From Legionella tucsonensis (lineage in GTDB: Bacteria; Pseudomonadota; Gammaproteobacteria; Legionellales; Legionellaceae), in NCBI RefSeq assembly GCF_001468035.1, contig NZ_LNZA01000001.1, positions 2,712,986-2,776,985 on the forward strand: DNA of 64,000 nucleotides. Direction: 5' to 3'. Positions 3,542 to 50,859 of the stretch are shown here, in pieces. The notes below the pieces were generated by a model. It had not been told where the DNA came from. It did not search any database and worked only from the letters and a program-made list of their open reading frames with translations. The position numbers and the translations under genes were made by a program. Numbering within the stretch: the stretch's first letter is position 1; each line of letters starts with the position of its first letter.

Positions 3542-6394
3542 CTAGATTGAGTCAAATGGAAATGATCGTGTATTTAAAATAGGTTTCAAAAATTGTCCCG
3601 TATAAGAACACTCGCATTCGGCAACTTGCTCTGGTGTTCCTGTTGCCACAATGCGCCCGCCTTTACTGCCGCCTTCAGGTCCTAGATCGATAATCCAATC
3701 TGCTGTCTTAATCACATCCAAATTATGTTCAATAATTACAATCGTGTTCCCTTGCGAACGTAAACGGAATAATACTGCCAACAACTGCTTGGTATCATGA
3801 AAATGCAATCCTGTTGTAGGCTCATCAAGAATATATAATGTACTTCCTGTATCTCGTTTTGACAGCTCGCGGGACAACTTAATTCTCTGAGCTTCTCCTC
3901 CTGAAAGAGTAGTTGCACTTTGTCCCAACTTAATATAAGACAAACCAACATCCATCAAAGTCTGGCATTTTCTGGCTAATGCTGGAATCGCTGCAAAAAA
4001 ATGACTTGCATCTTCAACGGTCATTTCTAAAACCTCGTGAATATTTTTGCCTTTATACTGTATATCAAGAGTTTCTCGATTGTAACGTTTTCCTTTGCAA
4101 ACATCACATGACACATAAATATCAGGCAAAAAGTGCATTTCAACCTTAATGAGTCCGTCACCCTGACAGGCTTCACAACGTCCGCCACGGACGTTAAAGC
4201 TAAAACGCCCTGGCTGATAACCTCGCGCTCTAGATTCAGGAGTTGCTGCAAATAACTCTCGGATATGAGTAAAGATACCTGTATATGTAGCTGGATTGGA
4301 ACGAGGGGTTCTACCAATCGGGCTCTGATCAATATCAATTACTTTATCGCATAAATTTAAACCAGCAATCTCCTTGGCTGTACCTGGAGTAAATAAACTT
4401 GCCCGATTTAACAGATTCGCGGCACTTGGATATAAAGTATCATTGATCAGACTCGATTTCCCTGACCCCGAAACACCCGTGATGCAAGTAAGTAAGCCCA
4501 AAGGAATACTGACATCGACATCAAGTAAATTATTACAAACCACCCCTTTTAAATGAATCATTTTGTCGGCATTAACGGATAACCGAGTCTCAGGAATCTC
4601 TATGGATTGCTTCCCGGATAAATATTGCCCCGTCAATGAAGTAGACGATTGCATAATTTCTTGTGGTGTACCGTGAGCAACAATTTCACCACCATGTACC
4701 CCAGCCCCAGGTCCTATATCCAAGACAAAATCAGCACTTCGAATCGCATCCTCATCATGCTCTACTACGATGACCGTATTTCCCAGATTCCGTAAATGCA
4801 TCAATGTTTTTAATAACCGATCATTATCTCGCTGATGCAATCCAATAGAGGGTTCATCCAAAATATACATGACACCAACCAAACCTGAACCAATCTGACT
4901 GGCTAAACGAATACGTTGTGCTTCTCCACCGGATAAAGTTTCAGCACTACGAGTTAAAGAAAGGTAATCCAAGCCCACATTAACCAAAAATCCTAATCGC
5001 TCAACAATTTCTTTATTAATTTTTGCCGCAATTTCACCTTTATATCCTGTCATCCGTAAATTTTTAAAAAATACATAAGCTCTTTCAATCGAATATGCAG
5101 TGACTTCAGGTAAATTTTTATCATCAATAAACACATGTCGTGCTTCTTCGCGTAATCGTGCACCATGACAGCTCTGACAAGGACGAGATGATAAATATTT
5201 AGCAAGCTCTTCACGTATCATTCCCGAATCAGACTCACGATAACGTCGCTGCATATTCGGAATAATTCCTTCAAATGCATGTCGTTTAATCATATACCCG
5301 CCGCCATTGGGTCGATGATAATGAAAGTCGATAATTTCACGTCCACTGCCGTATAGAACAATTTGGCGCACTTCTTCAGGCAAATCACAAAATGCGGTAT
5401 GGGTATCAAAACCATAATGTTGTGCAAGCGACTCAAGCATCGAGAAATAATAAGTGGTTTTTTTATCCCACCCACGAATAGCTCCTTCGGCCAAACTGGC
5501 TGTTTGATCATGTATGACCCGCTCAGGATCAAAAAACTGATCAACCCCCAACCCATCACAAGCAGGACAAGCCCCTACAGGATTGTTAAAAGAAAAAAGC
5601 CTGGGTTCTAACTCACTGAGGCTATATCCACATTCAGGACATGCAAATTTTGAAGAAAAAACAAGATCGTCAAATTGACCATCCATAGAAGCTACTATTG
5701 CGAGACCTTCTGCTAAATTTAAAGCATTTTCAAATGACTCACTTAAACGCTGAGCAATATCAGGCCTGACTTTAAAACGATCCACAACTACTTCAATGGT
5801 ATGTTTCGTGCGTAAACCCAGCTTAGGAGGAGCATCCAACTCATGAAGCGCACCGTCAATTCGCGCACGTACATAACCTTGAGCTTGCAGCTGCTGTAAC
5901 AGCTGGACCTGTTCTCCTTTGCGTTCGCGTACAACTGGAGCCAAAATCATCACTTTACTGTCAGCAGGCAAAGCTAAAACCTGATCCACCATTTGACTAA
6001 TCGTTTGCGCATGCAAGCTCACGCGGTGTGTAGGGCAACGAGGCTCCCCTACTCGTGCATAAAGTAACCGTAAATAATCATAAATTTCGGTAATAGTGCC
6101 TACTGTGGAACGAGGATTGTGGGAGGTTGCTTTCTGTTCAATAGAAATTGCTGGAGATAAACCTTCTATCGAATCAACATCAGGTTTTTCCATCATTGCT
6201 AAAAATTGCCGTGCGTAAGCGGATAAAGACTCCACATAACGACGCTGGCCTTCTGCATATAAAGTATCAAAGGCTAAAGAAGACTTACCTGAACCAGATA
6301 AACCCGTAATTACAATTAATTTATCACGGGGCAAATCCAAGTCGAGATTTTTTAGATTGTGGGTTCTTGCACCACGTATGGTGATAGTTTGCAT
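3542..6394 (-). CDS. uvrA: UvrABC excinuclease subunit A
   Basis: Damage-recognition ATPase of nucleotide excision repair; it forms a dimer and loads UvrB onto damaged DNA. The 950 residues match the usual 940-950. Visible motifs are the first Walker [10 protein letters not shown] (residues 31-39), a zinc module CPEC...CPAC (about 250-280), the first ABC signature [19 protein letters not shown], the second Walker [10 protein letters not shown] (about 639-647), a second zinc module CEAC...CDVC (about 738-765), the second signature [18 protein letters not shown] and Walker [13 protein letters not shown]. The gene is intact and alone. No LexA-type operator was recognised upstream. A TATAAT-like hexamer on the minus strand lies at 6461-6466. 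Confidence 0.98.
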
Positions 6395-43947: not shown

Positions 43948-44703
43948 TTAACCGACCTGACTATACCCTGCATCAACAAATAAAGTATGCCCATTAATCA
44001 TAGATGCCTCTGGCAAGCACAAGAGATAAACAGCATTGGCTACATCTTGTGTTGTCAAGGGTCTGTCAGCCAAAGAGTGGGCTTGATATTCATCAAGTAA
44101 CTGCTCTCTATTAGGGAAATGCTTTAATGCATCAGTATCAACCACTCCAGCAGAAACTGTATTTACTGTAATCCCATCAACAGCCAACTCCAGACTCAAC
44201 GAACGAACTAAAGCCTCAAGAGCGGCTTTAGATGCACCAATAAATGCGTAATTGGGAATCGCCCGAGATGCACCAAGGCTAGATAAGGCAATAATTCGAC
44301 CACCCTTCGGCATTAATAAACGGGCTTCTGTAGCCAAATGATTTAATGCTAAAGCATTGGTTTCCAGACACCAACGCCAATGCTTGGTTGACATCTTAAG
44401 TGCCGGTTTTAAAACACCACTCGCAGCATTACTAATTAAAAAATCAAGGTGATTAAAATGTTCACGAAACTGAATTAACATTTCTTTTACAGACTGATGA
44501 TCTGCTACATTAGCTTGTAAAGCAATTGCTTTACGGCCCATAGCATGGAGTTCTTCAACCAAAGCTTGGGCTTCATCAGAACTGTTGTAATAAACTATAG
44601 CAATATCACTTCCTGCTTGAGCTAACTTTAATGCAGTCGCCTTACCGATGCCTCGTGCACCGCCAGTAATTAATCCAACTTTACCCGAAAAAACCAAACT
44701 CAT
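43948..44703 (-). CDS. FabL-like enoyl-ACP reductase (SDR family)
   Basis: Classical short-chain dehydrogenase of 251 residues. NAD(P)-binding motif ITGGARGIGKATA (residues 13-25). The catalytic region is LSSLGASRAIPNYAFIGASK, where Tyr and Lys are spaced Tyr-x6-Lys as in enoyl reductases, not Tyr-x3-Lys as in FabG. SNAASGVLKPALKMSTKHW and TDALKHFPNREQLL strongly recall B. subtilis FabL. Likely the first gene of the fatty-acid cluster. Confidence 0.85.
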   Translation of the reverse strand: MSLVFSGKVGLITGGARGIGKATALKLAQAGSDIAIVYYNSSDEAQALVEELHAMGRKAIALQANVADHQSVKEMLIQFREHFNHLDFLISNAASGVLKPALKMSTKHWRWCLETNALALNHLATEARLLMPKGGRIIALSSLGASRAIPNYAFIGASKAALEALVRSLSLELAVDGITVNTVSAGVVDTDALKHFPNREQLLDEYQAHSLADRPLTTQDVANAVYLLCLPEASMINGHTLFVDAGYSQVG

Positions 44704-45051
44704 GGAATATTCCTCATCAACTTCAATTTATCTAAATGAATAAAAAATGCAACTGTTGATAAAACCAACTTAAGAAATCATAGTCCCTATATTGCCTGGA
44801 TGAAAACGAAGCAGAACCCCTGAAATTTATTCCCAATAAAACCCGGGTCCGCCTCATTCCACCCAGGCCATGATTTCAAGATACCAAGTGCTTATACATT
44901 GATACCATTGGATAAGCAGTTACAATAGCTACATTTTCATTTTTATTCATCGATAAAGCAATGATTAGATCATTAAATTATTAAATATCTTGTTTCTAGA
45001 GAGCTAACTTTGTACTATCGGCACACGATTAAGATAAACATATATTAATGA
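44704..45051. other. Intergenic region with a degenerate repeat
   Basis: This divergent region of 348 bases between the fatty-acid cluster and the MFS gene has no supported gene. At 44809-44867 there is a block (GCAGAACCCCTGAAATT, then ATAAAACCCGGGT) that resembles the block at 50357-50414. Promoters for both directions must lie here but none is clear enough to mark. Confidence 0.45.
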
Positions 45052-46410
45052 ATGAAGCATTCTTGGTTTAAAACTGTGTTTCCTATAGCCGCGATTTTTT
45101 CCTTTCGCATGCTCGGTTTGTTTTTACTCATACCTGTATTTAGTATTTATGCAGAAAACTTGCAGAATGCCTCTCCTGCTTTAGTGGGACTTGCTCTAGG
45201 AATTTATGGCCTTGCGCAAGGTCTTCTCCAAATGCCTTTTGGCATGCTTTCCGATAAAATAGGAAGAAAACCCATGATTACTGTGGGCTTGATTCTTTTT
45301 GCTTTTGGCAGCTTGTTGGGCGCCATAACTGATTCTATTTATGGAATGATTCTTGCAAGAACCTTACAAGGCACCGGTGCAATTGGTAGCGTTTTAATCG
45401 CTTTACTTGCTGATTTAACGCCTGACGAACATCGTACCAAAGCAATGGCTGTTATTGGTATGACCATAGGCACAACATTTAGCTTGGCCATGATCATTAG
45501 CCCATCCATTACCCATCATTTTGGTCTATCTGGTATTTTTTACCTTACTACTTTATTAGCGATTATAGGAATAGGATTGCTTCATTTAGTCATTCCTAAA
45601 CCCGTAAATGAACCCTTTCATATTGATAGTGAAACTAATCCCGCTTTATTGAAACAAGTTATCTCTAATCTACAATTACAACGCCTGAATATGGGCATTT
45701 TTTGCCAGCATTTTATTCTCACAGCAACATTTTTTGCCATTCCCTACATTTTAAGAAAACAGGTGGAACAAGGGCATTTATCACAACAATGGCATTTTTA
45801 TCTGCCCCTTATGCTCATTTCATTTATACTCATGATCCCGTTTATTGTGATTGCCGAAAGGAAAAAACACATGAAAAGTGTTTTTATTTTATCTGTATTC
45901 ACTATGGTAATAGCACAATTATTATTAGCTTATAATTTTCAAAATTGGCTGAGTCTGTGCTTCCTTATGTTAATTTATTTTATTGCTTTTAACATTCTCG
46001 AAGCTGCATTACCCTCATTAGTATCCAAACAGGCAAATCCCAACAGTAAAGGAACTGCCATGGGCGTTTACTCAACCAGTCAATTTTTAGGCCTTTTTAT
46101 TGGTGGAGCAATGTCAGGTGTTTTGTATCAATGGAGTGGCAGCAAGGGAATTTTTATTACTAATACTATCTTCAGTGCTTTATGGTTACTTATTTCTTTT
46201 TCAATGAAATCAAACGTTTCTATTGCAACACTTATTTTACCTTGTTCCTGGACTGGAAAAGAAGTAAATATCATCAATGAATTGTTACATGTTAAAGGAG
46301 TAATTGAAGTGGCATTCGCAGAAGATGAACGGGTAATTTATTTACGTGTGAACAGAGATCGCTATCTTGTAGGCAGCGCTGAAAAAATAATTCATAAGGG
46401 AAATCGATAA
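45052..46410 (+). CDS. MFS transporter, YajR-like with C-terminal YAM domain
   Basis: Inner-membrane transporter of 452 residues. Twelve hydrophobic segments fill residues 5-395. The loop motif GMLSDKIGRKP between helices 2 and 3 is the MFS motif A. A soluble C-terminal extension of about 55 residues (VNIINELLHVKGVIEVAFAE...) has the ferredoxin-like YAM domain form found in E. coli YajR. Substrate unknown. Alone and divergent from the fatty-acid cluster. Confidence 0.88.
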   Translation: MKHSWFKTVFPIAAIFSFRMLGLFLLIPVFSIYAENLQNASPALVGLALGIYGLAQGLLQMPFGMLSDKIGRKPMITVGLILFAFGSLLGAITDSIYGMILARTLQGTGAIGSVLIALLADLTPDEHRTKAMAVIGMTIGTTFSLAMIISPSITHHFGLSGIFYLTTLLAIIGIGLLHLVIPKPVNEPFHIDSETNPALLKQVISNLQLQRLNMGIFCQHFILTATFFAIPYILRKQVEQGHLSQQWHFYLPLMLISFILMIPFIVIAERKKHMKSVFILSVFTMVIAQLLLAYNFQNWLSLCFLMLIYFIAFNILEAALPSLVSKQANPNSKGTAMGVYSTSQFLGLFIGGAMSGVLYQWSGSKGIFITNTIFSALWLLISFSMKSNVSIATLILPCSWTGKEVNIINELLHVKGVIEVAFAEDERVIYLRVNRDRYLVGSAEKIIHKGNR

Positions 46411-46578
46411 TTAATAGAGTGTTTAAATGAAAATTTCTTTGGAACATCAAGCCACAGAACACAGTAAAATATTATTGGGAGGAATATGCAATTGTTTTAT
46501 TTCTTGTCGGACAGCATGGACAAAGAACAACATCAATTAGTTGGTTAGTTTACTCTGTTCGCTCTATCACTCTATCTA

Positions 46579-46619
46579 AGGTAGGTTGGCGCGCTACACT
46601 TAGCGCCAAACCCACCTAT
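46579..46619. terminator. Imperfect hairpin between convergent genes
   Basis: Arms AGGTAGGTTGGCGC and GCGCCAAACCCACCTA form an imperfect inverted repeat with small bulges and a loop of about 10 bases. It lies between the MFS gene and the convergent MerR-QueF gene. No T-run follows, so this could be a dispersed palindromic element rather than a true terminator. Confidence 0.4.
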
Positions 46620-46652
46620 TTGCCTCCCTATCCGTAAGTTGGCGCAATTAAG

Positions 46653-47903
46653 CTACTGACGGGCCAAGCGCACATTTTTACCTGCAAATGAAGTCTTTTC
46701 CGTAGAGCGATACGGATTGATATCCAAGCCACCTCGTCGTGTATAACGGCCGTATACAGTCAGTTTTTCGGGCTTACAATAGTTCATAATATCAACAAAA
46801 ATGCGCTCAATACATTGCTCATGAAACTCATTATGATTTCGATAGGAAATAAGATACTTCAATAAACCTTCTCGATTAATTTTTTTCCCTTCATAGGTAA
46901 TTTGTACGCTTCCCCAATCAGGTTGGCTTGTAACGAGACAATTTGATTTCAATAGATTGGAAAATAAGGTTTCTTCCACAATTTCATCACTTATAGAGAG
47001 GAATGAAGGCTCAACAAGATAAATAGAACACTCTATATCAAGCTCATCAAGCGATTCCCCTATTAAAGGCTTTTGTACAGCAAACTCAATGGTCTCTTCC
47101 AAAAGATGAATATGGACCCAAACTTCTGCACCAACGCATTTTTGTAAGTCTTTTTTAATTGTATTTTCTAATTCATTAACGTTTTGAATTCGTGTATTGT
47201 TGAATGAGTTAAAATAAAGTTTTAATGATTTTGACTCAATCAAGTTAGGTGAACTGCAGTCATAAAACAATTCAGCAATCGCAACCATAGGCTTGCCTTT
47301 AGCATTAAGCCAGGAAACCTCGTAGTGATTCCAGCAATCAAAGCCATAAAAAGGTAATTGCACTGGATCAACCCCAATTTCCTGTCGCTTTCCTGCCCTC
47401 GGAATAGGGTATAATCGATCTGGATTATAAGTTTCATCATATGCAGATTTTTTACCTAATTCGGATTGTTCCGCTTCGGATTGATATTTTTGTAATACTC
47501 GATCGTTCATTGTATTTAACTCCAATATTTCTATAATTTTTGCCGTGCTTTTCCAATTCACTTGTTGATTCATTTCCATTTGGGTGGAAATATAAGTGAG
47601 CAATGATGCTGCTTCATTAATTCGCATCGCTTTCTCGGTTAATTCACGTGCTTGTATGCCAATGGACGTCATCACATCGAAATGTGGATTTTCCATAATT
47701 TTCTTAATCATTGATAAAGAAAAACCCAAAAACTTTAAGGTGGTAATTTGTTGTAATCGTATTAAATCCGTTTCAGAATAAAGACGATAACCACTTATTG
47801 AGCGTTTTGTTGGTTTTAATAAGCAAATTTCATCATAATATTGTAATGACCTAATGGTTAATGAGGTCATTTGGCTAATTTCTTTAATTTGGTAATATTT
47901 CAT
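46653..47903 (-). CDS. MerR-family regulator fused to QueF-like reductase
   Basis: Continuous 416-residue reading frame. Residues 1-115 are a MerR/TipA-type DNA-binding and dimerisation region (IKEISQMTSLTIRSLQYYDE, SISGYRLYSETDLIRLQQIT). Residues 116-148 resemble the TipA hinge (QKYQSEAEQSELGKK). Residues 149-416 are QueF, the NADPH-dependent preQ0 reductase of queuosine synthesis: AELFYDCSSPNLIESKSLKL, C322 in SNCLVTSQPDWGS, FHEQCIERIF and YTRRGGLDINPYRS. Catalytic residues are present. An internal ATG (residue 132) with GGAG nine bases upstream could also give a free 285-residue QueF, close to E. coli QueF in length. A MerR-type promoter precedes the gene. Confidence 0.88.
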   Translation of the reverse strand: MKYYQIKEISQMTSLTIRSLQYYDEICLLKPTKRSISGYRLYSETDLIRLQQITTLKFLGFSLSMIKKIMENPHFDVMTSIGIQARELTEKAMRINEAASLLTYISTQMEMNQQVNWKSTAKIIEILELNTMNDRVLQKYQSEAEQSELGKKSAYDETYNPDRLYPIPRAGKRQEIGVDPVQLPFYGFDCWNHYEVSWLNAKGKPMVAIAELFYDCSSPNLIESKSLKLYFNSFNNTRIQNVNELENTIKKDLQKCVGAEVWVHIHLLEETIEFAVQKPLIGESLDELDIECSIYLVEPSFLSISDEIVEETLFSNLLKSNCLVTSQPDWGSVQITYEGKKINREGLLKYLISYRNHNEFHEQCIERIFVDIMNYCKPEKLTVYGRYTRRGGLDINPYRSTEKTSFAGKNVRLARQ

Positions 47904-47924
47904 TCAACTTTCTCCTGAAAGTTG

Positions 47925-47955
47925 ATTCTAAACTATCACGTAACGTGAGAGTCAA
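47925..47955 (-). promoter_or_regulatory. MerR-type autoregulatory promoter/operator
   Basis: On the minus strand TTGACT (47950-47955) and TAGAAT (47925-47930) are separated by 19 bp, longer than standard and characteristic of MerR-activated promoters. A 21-base palindrome centred in the spacer (ACT-C-TCACGT-T-ACGTGA-T-AGT, 47932-47952, 9 of 10 pairs matching) would be the operator. Transcription would start about 15 bases before the ATG, leaving a very short leader with AGGAG. A second perfect 8-bp inverted repeat (47905-47924) surrounds that AGGAG but would be only partly transcribed. Confidence 0.8.
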
Positions 47956-47996
47956 TAGCTGAAAGCAAAAAATACATTATAGGGATAACAAAAACC

Positions 47997-48620
47997 ATGT
48001 CTAAAAATGATCTTAGTTGGTTAAAGTATATTACTGAAATTCAAGCAATCGCTCAAAATGGACTGAATTATTCAAATAATGAGTTTGATAAAGAACGTTA
48101 TTTAAGACTTCGCGAGATTGCTTCTGCATTTATGGCGAATTATTCTGATACTCCACTCGCTGAGATAAAACAAATCTTTTCACTAGAAAAGGGATATGCT
48201 ACTCCTAAAGTAGATGTCCGTGCATTTATTCTAAAAGATAATAAAATTTTATTGGTTAAAGAACGTTCCGATGCATTGTGGACCTTGCCTGGCGGTTGGG
48301 CAGAAACAAATGAGTCAGCATCAGAATCAGTGATTAGAGAAGCTAAGGAAGAAACTGGATTTGATGTTTCTGTAATCAGATTACTGGCATTATGGGATAA
48401 ACAAAAACATGAGCATCCGCTACAGTGGCCACATACTTATAAATGCTTTTTTCATTGTGAAATTATGTCGGGAACAGCAAAAGAAAATTTAGAAATCTCT
48501 GAAATTGATTTTTTTGATTTAGCCAACTTACCAGCGCTCTCAACCCCTAGAGTGACACAAAAACAAATTATTCGTCTGCATGAACTTGTTTGCAGTTCCG
48601 ATAAAACACTCTTTGATTGA
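47997..48620 (+). CDS. Nudix hydrolase with N-terminal helical domain
   Basis: Protein of 207 residues. The N-terminal 60 residues (WLKYITEIQAIAQNGLNYS...) form the helical Nudix N-terminal domain. The Nudix box is complete: G-x5-E-x7-REAKEETGF in GWAETNESASESVIREAKEE. Its substrate is probably a nucleoside diphosphate derivative, the exact one unknown. It is divergent from the MerR-QueF fusion, 93 bp away, so the regulator may influence it too. Confidence 0.88.
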   Translation: MSKNDLSWLKYITEIQAIAQNGLNYSNNEFDKERYLRLREIASAFMANYSDTPLAEIKQIFSLEKGYATPKVDVRAFILKDNKILLVKERSDALWTLPGGWAETNESASESVIREAKEETGFDVSVIRLLALWDKQKHEHPLQWPHTYKCFFHCEIMSGTAKENLEISEIDFFDLANLPALSTPRVTQKQIIRLHELVCSSDKTLFD

Positions 48621-48660
48621 GCATGTACTTGACTCAAACCTTATAACATAAATTAGCCTT

Positions 48661-48850
48661 ATGACTAAGGAGGAAAAAGATGAAACAAAGTATGCAAAAA
48701 AGTTTAGTCGATTGACACAAGTTTGTGTAAGAACACTACATCACTACGACAAAAATTGGTTTGCTTAAAGCCAGTTTTACGTCTAAGCAATCATTATCGT
48801 TTGTACCTGATCCGAATCAATATCAAGCATATCAAACCAGAGGTCTTGTT
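48661..48850 (+). pseudogene. Decayed MerR/TipA-type regulator
   Basis: A strong ribosome-binding site (AAGGAGGA, 48667-48674) precedes ATG at 48680, but the frame breaks at once. Reading across frames gives YAKKFSRLTQVCVRTLHHYD, then KIGLLKP, then LRLSNHYRLY, the N-terminal signature of TipA-type MerR regulators. At least three indels are needed, near 48688-48690, 48751-48755 and 48766-48769. Downstream similarity fades after about 48840. The rest of the interval to ssb (48958) holds no supported gene. Confidence 0.8.
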
Positions 48851-48957
48851 TTTTCTATTTAGTAACACAATTAAAAGTTCATCTTTAACTCATCAGTGCA
48901 AGGGATATATAAATTAGGTATACTCTTTTCCTAACTTTCGCATACAGGAGATCTAAA

Positions 48958-49428
48958 ATGGCACGTGGTATAAATAAAGTCATCCTAATTGGCAATGTGG
49001 GTGTTGACCCTGATGTCCGTTATTTACCTAATGGAAATGCAGTCACTACACTATCAATTGCCACGAGTGAAGCATGGAAAGATAAAGTAACAGGAGAAAA
49101 ACAAGAGCGAACTGAATGGCATCGTGTAGTATGTTTTAACCGTTTAGGAGAGATAGCTGGTGAATACGTACGCAAAGGCTCTAAACTCTACATTGAAGGG
49201 AGTTTAAGAACCAGAAAATGGCAAGATCAACAAGGTCAAGATAAATATACTACTGAGATTGTAGCTAATGACATTCAAATGCTTGACAGTAAAGGAGCAG
49301 CATCATCAAGCTTTGATGAAATACCACAAGCCCAATTTACACAAAGCAACCAAAGTGCTGGAAAACAACAACCTGCGCAAGTACCTCAAGATGCTTTTGA
49401 TCAATTGGATGATGATGTTCCATTTTAA
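48958..49428 (+). CDS. ssb: Single-stranded DNA-binding protein
   Basis: Single-stranded DNA-binding protein of 156 residues. OB-fold N-terminus [20 protein letters not shown] and [21 protein letters not shown]; a Gln/Ser-rich linker; and the acidic tip DQLDDDVPF, used for protein partners. GGAG (AGGAGATCTAAA) precedes the ATG. Confidence 0.97.
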
Positions 49429-49463
49429 CTCCATCAGGACCTAAGCCATTATATTGTCTATTA

Positions 49464-49485
49464 CCGCCCTTATATATAAGGGCGG
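49464..49485 (+). terminator. Strong hairpin after ssb
   Basis: Perfect palindrome CCGCCCTTATATATAAGGGCGG, 36 bases after the ssb stop. The T-run afterwards is weak, so it may act as an mRNA 3' stem or an inefficient terminator. Confidence 0.6.
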
Positions 49486-49598
49486 ATATAACTACTCGTT
49501 TATATCTTTTAAAATAACTGTAGCCTATTTGCAGTAAAGCTGACACCAGGAATACTATCTAAAAAAACTGACGCTGTATTTTCAATTAAATCCAGTTA

Positions 49599-50078
49599 TC
49601 ACTCTTTTTTTATAAATGATATATGACCTGTTCTTTCCAAATATGAATAAAGTACTTTATCAAAAGAGGAAGTATTTATTTGTTGACGCATTTGTTCCTT
49701 TATATCACTTTTAGTGATATTTAAACTTTGCAACACGTTCGTTTGAAGAATACCATTTTTTATAAGAAGATAGCGTTTACCCTTAAATAAGCTTTCAAAT
49801 GTTAAAGATTTTCTAGTACATATAGCTAATATTTTATGCGTTACTATCAAGCCAGCTAAACCAATAATTGTAGAAAAAAAAGTAGTAGATCCATTTATTC
49901 CTCTACTAATTAATCCACCTGAAATCACAATAATTAATAAATCAAAAGAGTTGTTTAATTTAAACCTTCGATCACCAAATCGAATCAAAAGTGTACCTAT
50001 TACTAATAACAATACAGCTCTAATAAATACATAAACTAAATTTTGATTTTCATTTATTAAATAAATATAGGAAGACAT
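49599..50078 (-). CDS. DUF421 (YetF-like) membrane protein
   Basis: Membrane protein of 159 residues with two or three N-terminal membrane segments (about residues 14-35, 45-60 and 65-85), followed by a soluble domain. LLVIGTLLIRFGDRRFKLNN and FDLLIIVISGGLISRGINGS match the DUF421/YetF family, whose function is unknown. Standalone. Confidence 0.8.
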   Translation of the reverse strand: MSSYIYLINENQNLVYVFIRAVLLLVIGTLLIRFGDRRFKLNNSFDLLIIVISGGLISRGINGSTTFFSTIIGLAGLIVTHKILAICTRKSLTFESLFKGKRYLLIKNGILQTNVLQSLNITKSDIKEQMRQQINTSSFDKVLYSYLERTGHISFIKKE

Positions 50079-50429
50079 CCATTATCTCCATGATCATCCA
50101 TAAAATTATTAAGATTTCTTTTAAATATTAATTTTACCAAGTTACCATATATGTATCAAAATGTGTTTCTTATAAAAAGAGCTTGAAAAGCTGGAGCAGA
50201 TGAAGAAGTGCATGTCATCTTATTATAACCAAAATCAACAGAAAAACTGTAAGTATTAAGAGTGTTGAATGTGAATAAGCAACCATGAATTTAATTCGAT
50301 AAAGCAAAAGAAAATTCGTATTCCATATTACTTTATTAAAATCGTAGTGAACCCACGGCAGACCCCAGGAATTATGTCAAAGTAAACCCGAGTTAGGTTG
50401 TACTTTAAACAGGTTACACGTTAACTTCT
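50079..50429. other. Intergenic region with a degenerate repeat
   Basis: No gene is supported in this interval. A block at 50357-50414 (GGCAGACCCCAGGAATT, then TAAACCCGAGTTAGG) resembles the one at 44809-44867 and may be a diverged copy of a dispersed repeat. The rest is A+T-rich and unassigned. Confidence 0.45.
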
Positions 50430-50454
50430 AAAAAAAAACCCGCAAATGCGGGTT
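50430..50454 (-). terminator. Intrinsic terminator of the ribosomal protein operon
   Basis: On the minus strand AACCCGCA-TT-TGCGGGTT forms a tight 8-bp G+C-rich stem followed by a run of nine T. It lies 21 bases after the rplQ stop and ends the long ribosomal transcript. Confidence 0.95.
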
Positions 50455-50475
50455 ATCAAATTGGAAGTAGCTAAT

Positions 50476-50859
50476 TTATTCTTCAGCATCATCACTGGCA
50501 ACAGGTCGATCTAATAACTCAACAATTGCCATAGGTGCATTATCACCATCTCTATAACCACACTTGATGATACGTATATATCCACCAGGACGCTCTACAA
50601 AACGTGGGCCTAAATCTTTAAATAATTTACCAACAGCTGATTTAGATCTTAATACATCGAACGCTTGACGACGTGTAGCAACGGAATCAACCTTTGAAAC
50701 AGTAATTAAAGGTTCAATGTAACGTCGAAGATCTTTAGCTTTAGGCAAAGTAGTCTTAATCAACTCATGCTCAATTAAAGAACAACACATATTTGCAAAC
50801 ATAGCCTTTCTGTGGCTACTTGTACGGCTAAAACTTCTGCCTGAATTACGGTGACGCAT
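50476..50859 (-). CDS. rplQ: 50S ribosomal protein L17
   Basis: Large-subunit protein of 127 residues at the end of the alpha operon. [20 protein letters not shown] and [20 protein letters not shown] match L17. I chose ATG 50859, preceded by AGGAG; the frame opens two codons earlier at a TTG. 18 bp follow rpoA. Confidence 0.97.

Follow-up and report, generated by a model that had tools for sequence, protein, structure and literature searches.

A MerR head on the queuosine enzyme QueF of Legionella tucsonensis: a TipA-like plan whose effector part is an enzyme

What is the DNA-binding head of a MerR-type regulator doing on QueF, an enzyme of queuosine synthesis? The question is raised by a gene on the minus strand of a 64,000-nucleotide stretch of Legionella tucsonensis DNA (contig NZ_LNZA01000001.1, positions 2,712,986 to 2,776,985; hereafter the window), in which one frame of 416 codons encodes a MerR head followed by a complete QueF. 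We regard it as a variant of the TipA design, new as far as the open-access literature shows, whose effector domain is an enzyme. The reading that we prefer, and rate somewhat above an even bet, is that of a self-regulating enzyme gene built like tipA, in which preQ0 held on the QueF part of the long form would activate the gene's own promoter. An earlier note on this DNA, made from its letters alone, had described the single frame with a MerR head and a QueF that includes Cys322; the open frame, the profile matches above cut-offs and the catalytic residues bear it out. The gene and its parts are as follows.

46653..47903, minus strand: merR-queF fusion gene (long product, 416 aa), an uninterrupted open reading frame with an ATG start, profile matches and intact relatives in the family
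47691..47894, minus strand: MerR_1 DNA-binding domain, residues 4-71, by Pfam and by a fold like that of SkgA, 3qao, MtaN and the TipAL N-terminus
47109..47441, minus strand: QueF_N domain, residues 155-265 (T-fold 1, with the stretch E223-Y230 inside it), by Pfam and QueF alignment
46695..46922, minus strand: QueF domain, residues 328-403 (T-fold 2), by Pfam
46938..46940, minus strand: codon of the catalytic Cys322, by structure match and QueF alignment
46812..46814, minus strand: codon of Cys364, equivalent of Cys236 in bimodular QueF, invariant in 111 of 111 sequences; its role is taken from passages of PMC5372742

Residues 1-131 make up the MerR domain and a coiled-coil helix, and all the rest is a complete bimodular QueF. 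The winged helix-turn-helix of MerR type (PF13411/PF00376) stands at the N-terminus and the helix spans residues 77-110 in our fold model. Pfam's MerR_1 family matches with 58.5 bits (curated cut-off 21.6), QueF_N with 152.1 (25.6) and QueF with 102 (27.3); TIGR03138, the NCBIfam equivalog model for QueF, reaches 399.7 bits (cut-off 293.45) and aligns residues 144-416 with model positions 3-275 of 275. C322, D329, H361 and E362 are all present, as is the stretch E223-S-K-S-L-K-L-Y230, which we take to be the NADPH motif of QueF, and positions 223, 225, 228, 230, 322, 329, 361, 362 and 364 are identical in every one of 111 aligned QueF sequences. Compared with bimodular QueF of the E. coli/V. 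cholerae type (TIGR03138, PDB 3S19), the protein is alike in its full-length match, its catalytic and NADPH-motif residues and its fold, and unlike in that 131 residues of MerR head precede the QueF part and that the gene has its own MerR-type promoter.

The head points to the TipA class. By sequence, the solved structures nearest to it are MtaN (3.3e-19) and 3qao, then 3hh0, the TipAL N-terminus and SkgA. A fold model of the fusion, built from an alignment of 37 of the 42 distinct fusions, has a mean predicted local distance difference test (pLDDT) of 82.6 and a predicted template modelling score (pTM) of 0.61; a prediction from the single sequence reached pLDDT 36 and was discarded. SkgA (7cla) and 3qao, which we take to be the Lmo0526 of PMC7762955, align with the model by its head over 119-123 columns, and the heads of MtaN and TipAL match it as well. 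The model agrees with V. cholerae QueF to 1.6 Å over 261 columns, and none of the 50 structural matches listed covers both the head and the QueF part well. From the sequence and fold of the head, the earlier proposal that QueF stands where TipA carries its ligand domain holds good. The TipAS domain itself (PF07739) has no match in the fusion among Pfam families with E-values up to 1, its place being occupied by QueF_N and QueF, so that by the TipAS-domain definition the fusion is not a member of the TipA class; it is built like one and probably works like one. It resembles the class (TipAL/TipAS, Mta, SkgA, AlbA) in head sequence and fold, in promoter sequence and 19-base-pair (bp) spacing, in having that promoter at its own gene, in two predicted in-frame products and in a reactive Cys behind the head. 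It differs in that a complete metabolic enzyme serves as effector where TipA has the TipAS drug-binding domain, and in that the proposed ligand is a biosynthetic intermediate and not an antibiotic.

Intact, full-length fusions occur as 44 frames in 40 of 143 Legionellaceae genomes, with relatives 61-93% identical and some of the genomes in a single contig. The objection that the frame is an assembly error, which the earlier note had raised against itself, fails on this count. An order-level search covered the same 143 genomes. A phage origin was rejected, as none of 92 phage records covers 80% of the query. The nearest named relatives are those of Legionella anisa (93%) and of L. parisiensis, L. 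bozemanae and Legionella sp. PC1000 (92% each).

In Streptomyces lividans, tipA gives TipAL and TipAS from two starts, the short form being the main product; a Cys captures the ligand, and the long form, once it carries the ligand, activates its own gene (passages of PMC7762955 and PMC6078987). A comparable second start had been suggested here for the ATG at residue 132, and we find it very probably real. Its elements are these.

46653..47510, minus strand: predicted short product, a free QueF of residues 132-416 (285 aa), from the conserved internal start signal
47508..47510, minus strand: ATG of the internal start, codon 132, conserved as Met in all 42 distinct fusions
47520..47523, minus strand: GGAG, Shine-Dalgarno sequence for the internal start (codons L127-E128), from the codon bias at E128

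GGAG sits nine bases 5' of the internal ATG in L. tucsonensis. Residue 132 is Met in all 42 fusions while the three residues before it vary, and the codons of L127-E128 spell GGAG in 41 of them and GAGG in the remaining one. The E128 codon is GAG in 42 of 42; GAG makes up 32% of the Glu codons in these genes and reaches at most 71% in 13 other conserved Glu columns. L127 is likewise encoded by TTG or CTG in 41 of 42 fusions, against 32% overall. Every fusion has a Shine-Dalgarno tetramer ahead of M132; the first ATG has one in 34 of 42 fusions, and of 244 other in-frame ATGs 4 have one. The number of residues between L127-E128 and M132 is fixed across deep divergence. Ten headless loci (L050, L051, L056, L057, L063, L163, L166, L208, L218 and L219) retain linker codons upstream of QueF, and in all ten the old internal ATG alone, of the in-frame starts, has a Shine-Dalgarno tetramer; the L219 locus runs straight from a perfect operator into what is left of the linker and the internal start. 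Because the start signal is conserved and is the only well-signalled start left in these ten copies, two products are predicted: the gene would very probably yield a long regulator-enzyme and a short free QueF, as tipA does. There is a trap for annotation here, since the public NCBI record of the intact L. adelaidensis fusion begins at the internal ATG (locus position 6394) and so conceals the head.

A head needs a target, and the earlier note had singled out 47925-47955 as a candidate. The stretch coincides exactly with a conserved promoter/operator that, as far as 143 genomes show, belongs to the fusion gene.

47925..47955, minus strand: MerR-type promoter/operator TTGACT-N19-TAGAAT, with the dyad TCACGTTACGTGA at 47936-47948, conserved in the fusions and picked out by genome pattern scans
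47912..47915, minus strand: GGAG preceding the first start codon, read from the sequence

MerR-type promoters typically combine an over-long spacer of 19-20 bp with a dyad (passages of PMC10189885). In each of the 42 fusions TTGAC lies at most 60 bases 5' of the ATG and is followed by a 19-base spacer and a -10 of the form TANNNT, with a dyad near TCACGTNRCGTGA between -35 and -10, so that all 42 promoters appear to be of this type; the 31-base site ends 16-24 bases 5' of the ATG. Farther 5', we saw by eye no sequence common to distant relatives. The sequence is also that expected of a TipA-class gene at its own promoter: the first 26 bases of the site agree with the Bacillus subtilis mta promoter, as printed in PMC7762955, at 19-25 of 26 positions over the 42 fusions, with 22 of 26 in the window and 25 of 26 in L025 and L030.

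We derived an operator pattern from the fusions themselves and scanned the 143 genomes with it, using the reversed pattern as control. Exact copies numbered 48 (reversed control, 0), of which 47 have a QueF copy (fused, broken or headless) at most 900 bases away; the 48th precedes a broken MerR-QueF head. Sites with one mismatch numbered 22, eight adjoining QueF and 14 away from it; six of the latter were inspected, five of them preceding MerR-type frames and one resembling the remnant of a lost merR-queF junction. Conversely, in the 46 fusion loci (44 intact, two with a broken head) the operator is on the contig within one mismatch in all except that of G055. The divergent NUDIX gene at 47997-48620 was rejected as a general target of the operator, as it is not in the fetched flanks of several relatives in which the operator persists; in more distant relatives none of the window's neighbour genes are in the fetched flanks and the operator still accompanies the fusion. 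Since exact sites are confined to QueF loci and their remnants, and since the site stays when the neighbours change, autoregulation is the only role for the operator that is visible in the sequence. No other operator site stands out in the L. tucsonensis genome, and a wider regulon there is unsupported: the 17-base core with up to three mismatches gave two forward and two reverse matches, and the reversed control four and four. Half of the four real matches are the fusion's own site on both strands, and the other two lack TTGACN at the -35 place. AlbA offers a parallel, its promoter having a 19-bp spacer and occurring once in its genome (passages of PMC10189885).

The confinement of the exact operator to merR-queF loci would also suit another arrangement, in which the head sets the level of its own gene without any ligand, repressing or activating by its amount, and QueF is merely a carried enzyme, the two products still being made. 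The near absence of conserved QueF residues specific to fusions and the repeated loss of the head, both described below, lean the same way. The TipA-class heads treated in passages of PMC7762955 are governed by the domain behind them, however, and the fusion has been kept over deep divergence with an invariant number of residues from L127-E128 to M132. We consider this ligand-independent homeostat unlikely, if deserving of attention.

Between the -10 and the ATG, a perfect inverted repeat, CAACTTTC-AGGA-GAAAGTTG, spans 47905-47924 and overlaps the Shine-Dalgarno sequence; we set aside a leader hairpin, the repeat being found mainly in close relatives and the mean best stem being 4.6 against 3.7 in shuffled sequences. 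In one genome (L260 in G127), an apparent merR-queF operator and junction remnant precede an unrelated large gene, the QueF match of that species lying elsewhere; this is perhaps the scar of a lost merR-queF copy. A search with the head in 398 genomes of the phylum gave, besides the fusion, three relatives with 34-44% identity in frames of 283-333 aa, one of them in the L. tucsonensis genome. Two MerR paralogues of 314-333 aa (L205, G000:C1:1466641-1467012; L033, 3281-4225), each with a similar head (37%), bear GAGG-N8-ATG in the linker at the position matching the internal start of the fusion. L205, the paralogue in the L. tucsonensis genome, also has a promoter-like sequence with 19-bp spacing, and L033 has no TipAS domain by Pfam. 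A layout with two starts may have existed before the fusion with QueF.

Could the head be an accident, two adjacent genes having merged and left a functionless head and a relic of a start? The frequent loss of the head with QueF usually retained would speak for such a history. Against it, nine comparisons of close relatives gave dN/dS values of 0.05-0.15 for the head, similar to the 0.07-0.11 of the QueF part; the promoter is kept in 42 of 42 fusions; and the GAG of E128 never becomes GAA. As purifying selection acts on the head in the same way as on QueF and the fusion recurs in relatives, the arrangement is beyond chance. Judged by these rates, the head is no relic in the compared species, though dispensable over longer times. 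An accidental fusion, already disfavoured, strikes us as very improbable indeed.

If the head is useful, what might it respond to? The 3.36-Mb genome yielded the fusion as its only QueF locus, and QueC, Tgt and QueA were also detected. With one QueF locus found, the fusion, a predicted reductase, is the only candidate in the cell for the reduction of preQ0 to preQ1. Beside these genes, a partial Tgt-like frame (287 aa, below cut-off) adjoins queA at G000:C1:2116810-2117622, the Tgt above cut-off being on another contig.

QueF forms a thioimide with preQ0 through its Cys, according to passages of PMC5372742. That property, together with an anatomy parallel to that of tipA, leads us to the preQ0 switch. 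A conserved fusion, a recognizable promoter tied to its gene, a conserved internal start, intact catalytic residues and a sole QueF are what the sequence itself offers; by analogy, we infer from them that the head binds and activates, that preQ0 is the ligand and its thioimide the signal, and also the ratio of the products and the direction of control. One could envision the following cycle. The promoter at 47925-47955 would be weak, owing to its over-long 19-bp spacer, until the regulator twists the DNA. The long MerR-QueF would bind there, and the short QueF (residues 132-416) would perform most of the catalysis, the NADPH-dependent reduction of preQ0 to preQ1 on the way to queuosine. Whenever the build-up of preQ0 outpaced its reduction, preQ0 would come to sit on the QueF part of the long form, probably as a covalent thioimide on Cys322. 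The loaded QueF would free or reshape the head and the promoter would be activated; more QueF would be made and preQ0 drained.

It is tempting to go one step further and regard as the signal proper the thioimide that preQ0 forms covalently with Cys322 in the long product. It would last only when preQ0 outruns NADPH-dependent reduction, so that the gene would directly gauge unmet enzymatic demand. The short form would then compete for preQ0 and damp the signal. This refinement is tentative, and we would not expect it to hold in full; if it did, the reaction intermediate of an enzyme would be the ligand of a transcription factor.

The same cysteine admits another signal. A disulfide between Cys322 and Cys364, of the kind known from QueF under oxidative stress, might alter the head in place of preQ0. 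Both residues are invariant in the 111 QueF sequences and lie 42 residues apart, as do Cys194 and Cys236 in bimodular QueF, and passages of PMC5372742 describe the disulfide of B. subtilis QueF as allosteric-type. But the pair is just as invariant in headless QueF and hence not specific to the fusion, and a redox switch of this kind seems to us improbable.

The preQ0 switch has to be weighed against the history of the locus. Of 45 genomes of the genus Legionella, 27 have an intact fusion, in two (G056, G062) the head of the fusion is broken, and 16 have only headless QueF; among these 16, QueF is frame-split in one (G065) and another (G092) also has a broken fusion copy. Among the 29 fusion-bearing genomes, G093 is the only one with an additional headless QueF; a second fusion is present in four and a frame-broken copy in seven. 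A search of 369 genomes of the class, which include at least four Legionellaceae, found no fusion outside that family; one candidate, a QueF in an open stretch of 586 aa, proved to be a plain queE-queF-queC row with a stop between. A tree was drawn from 111 of the 113 distinct QueF sequences, without the frame-broken L075 type and L082. In it fusions and headless copies are interspersed, and its starred branches force at least ten changes of the fused label, the bootstrap being not settled. Together with the remnants of linker and operator, this pattern would fit one old fusion followed by many head losses, plus movement between replicons.

Several of these facts tell against a preQ0 switch. 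The head was lost many times while QueF remained, so the control is something that these bacteria can do without. A near-perfect operator persists in two headless copies (L219 with none and L217 with one mismatch) and in both broken-head copies (L133 with none, L021 with one): operator and head do not vanish strictly together. Only 12 of the 20 headless copies inspected keep GGAG-N7-11-ATG at the place of the internal start. Conserved QueF residues specific to the fusions are almost nil (columns 156 and 163, which headless copies conserve as well), and thus no special signalling surface is marked in the sequence. The operator was seen at no other queuosine gene, whence any sensing would govern QueF alone. 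Finally, the ligand, the DNA binding, the protein products and the activity are all predictions.

Enzymes that also regulate genes are familiar from the trigger enzymes PutA, BirA and NadR. Like them, the fusion unites an enzyme and a DNA-binding regulator on one polypeptide; unlike them, it has a head of MerR/TipA type and a place in the queuosine pathway, and its internal start is predicted to give a short enzyme as a second product. It would share with the preQ1 riboswitches the control of queuosine genes by metabolites of the pathway (passages of PMC11625349). Those sensors are RNA, whereas the fusion locus has no Rfam match at 44000-50500 with E-values up to 1 and the leader ahead of its first ATG is very short; we rejected a riboswitch here. 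A description of a MerR-QueF protein was not found in the open-access literature (subscription papers and preprints lie outside this scope), and the earlier statement that none is described stands that far. Nor did the open-access literature yield a protein sensor proposed for the preQ0/preQ1 step. If the preQ0 switch is real, the TipA plan (an autoregulated MerR head, a long and a short product, covalent capture) extends beyond drug defence to a housekeeping enzyme that regulates itself, and the family of loci represents a natural series of regulation gained and lost around one enzyme.

Two further forms of the locus were encountered. A frame-broken merR-queF copy is identical letter for letter in L075, L076, L077 and L079 (5001-6247), and lies at 6001-7247 in L202. 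Present in seven genomes of the genus, it also matches four Legionella plasmid records in two pieces; one of these plasmids is typed conjugative. Its promoter is intact and its QueF split, and among the neighbours annotated are acetyltransferases and members of the aminoglycoside phosphotransferase family. In a distant Legionellales metagenome-assembled genome (L089, 4935-6469), a normal queF is followed, with a stop/ATG overlap, by a MerR frame with an early TAA, which by its gene order is a separate queF-merR link in reverse.
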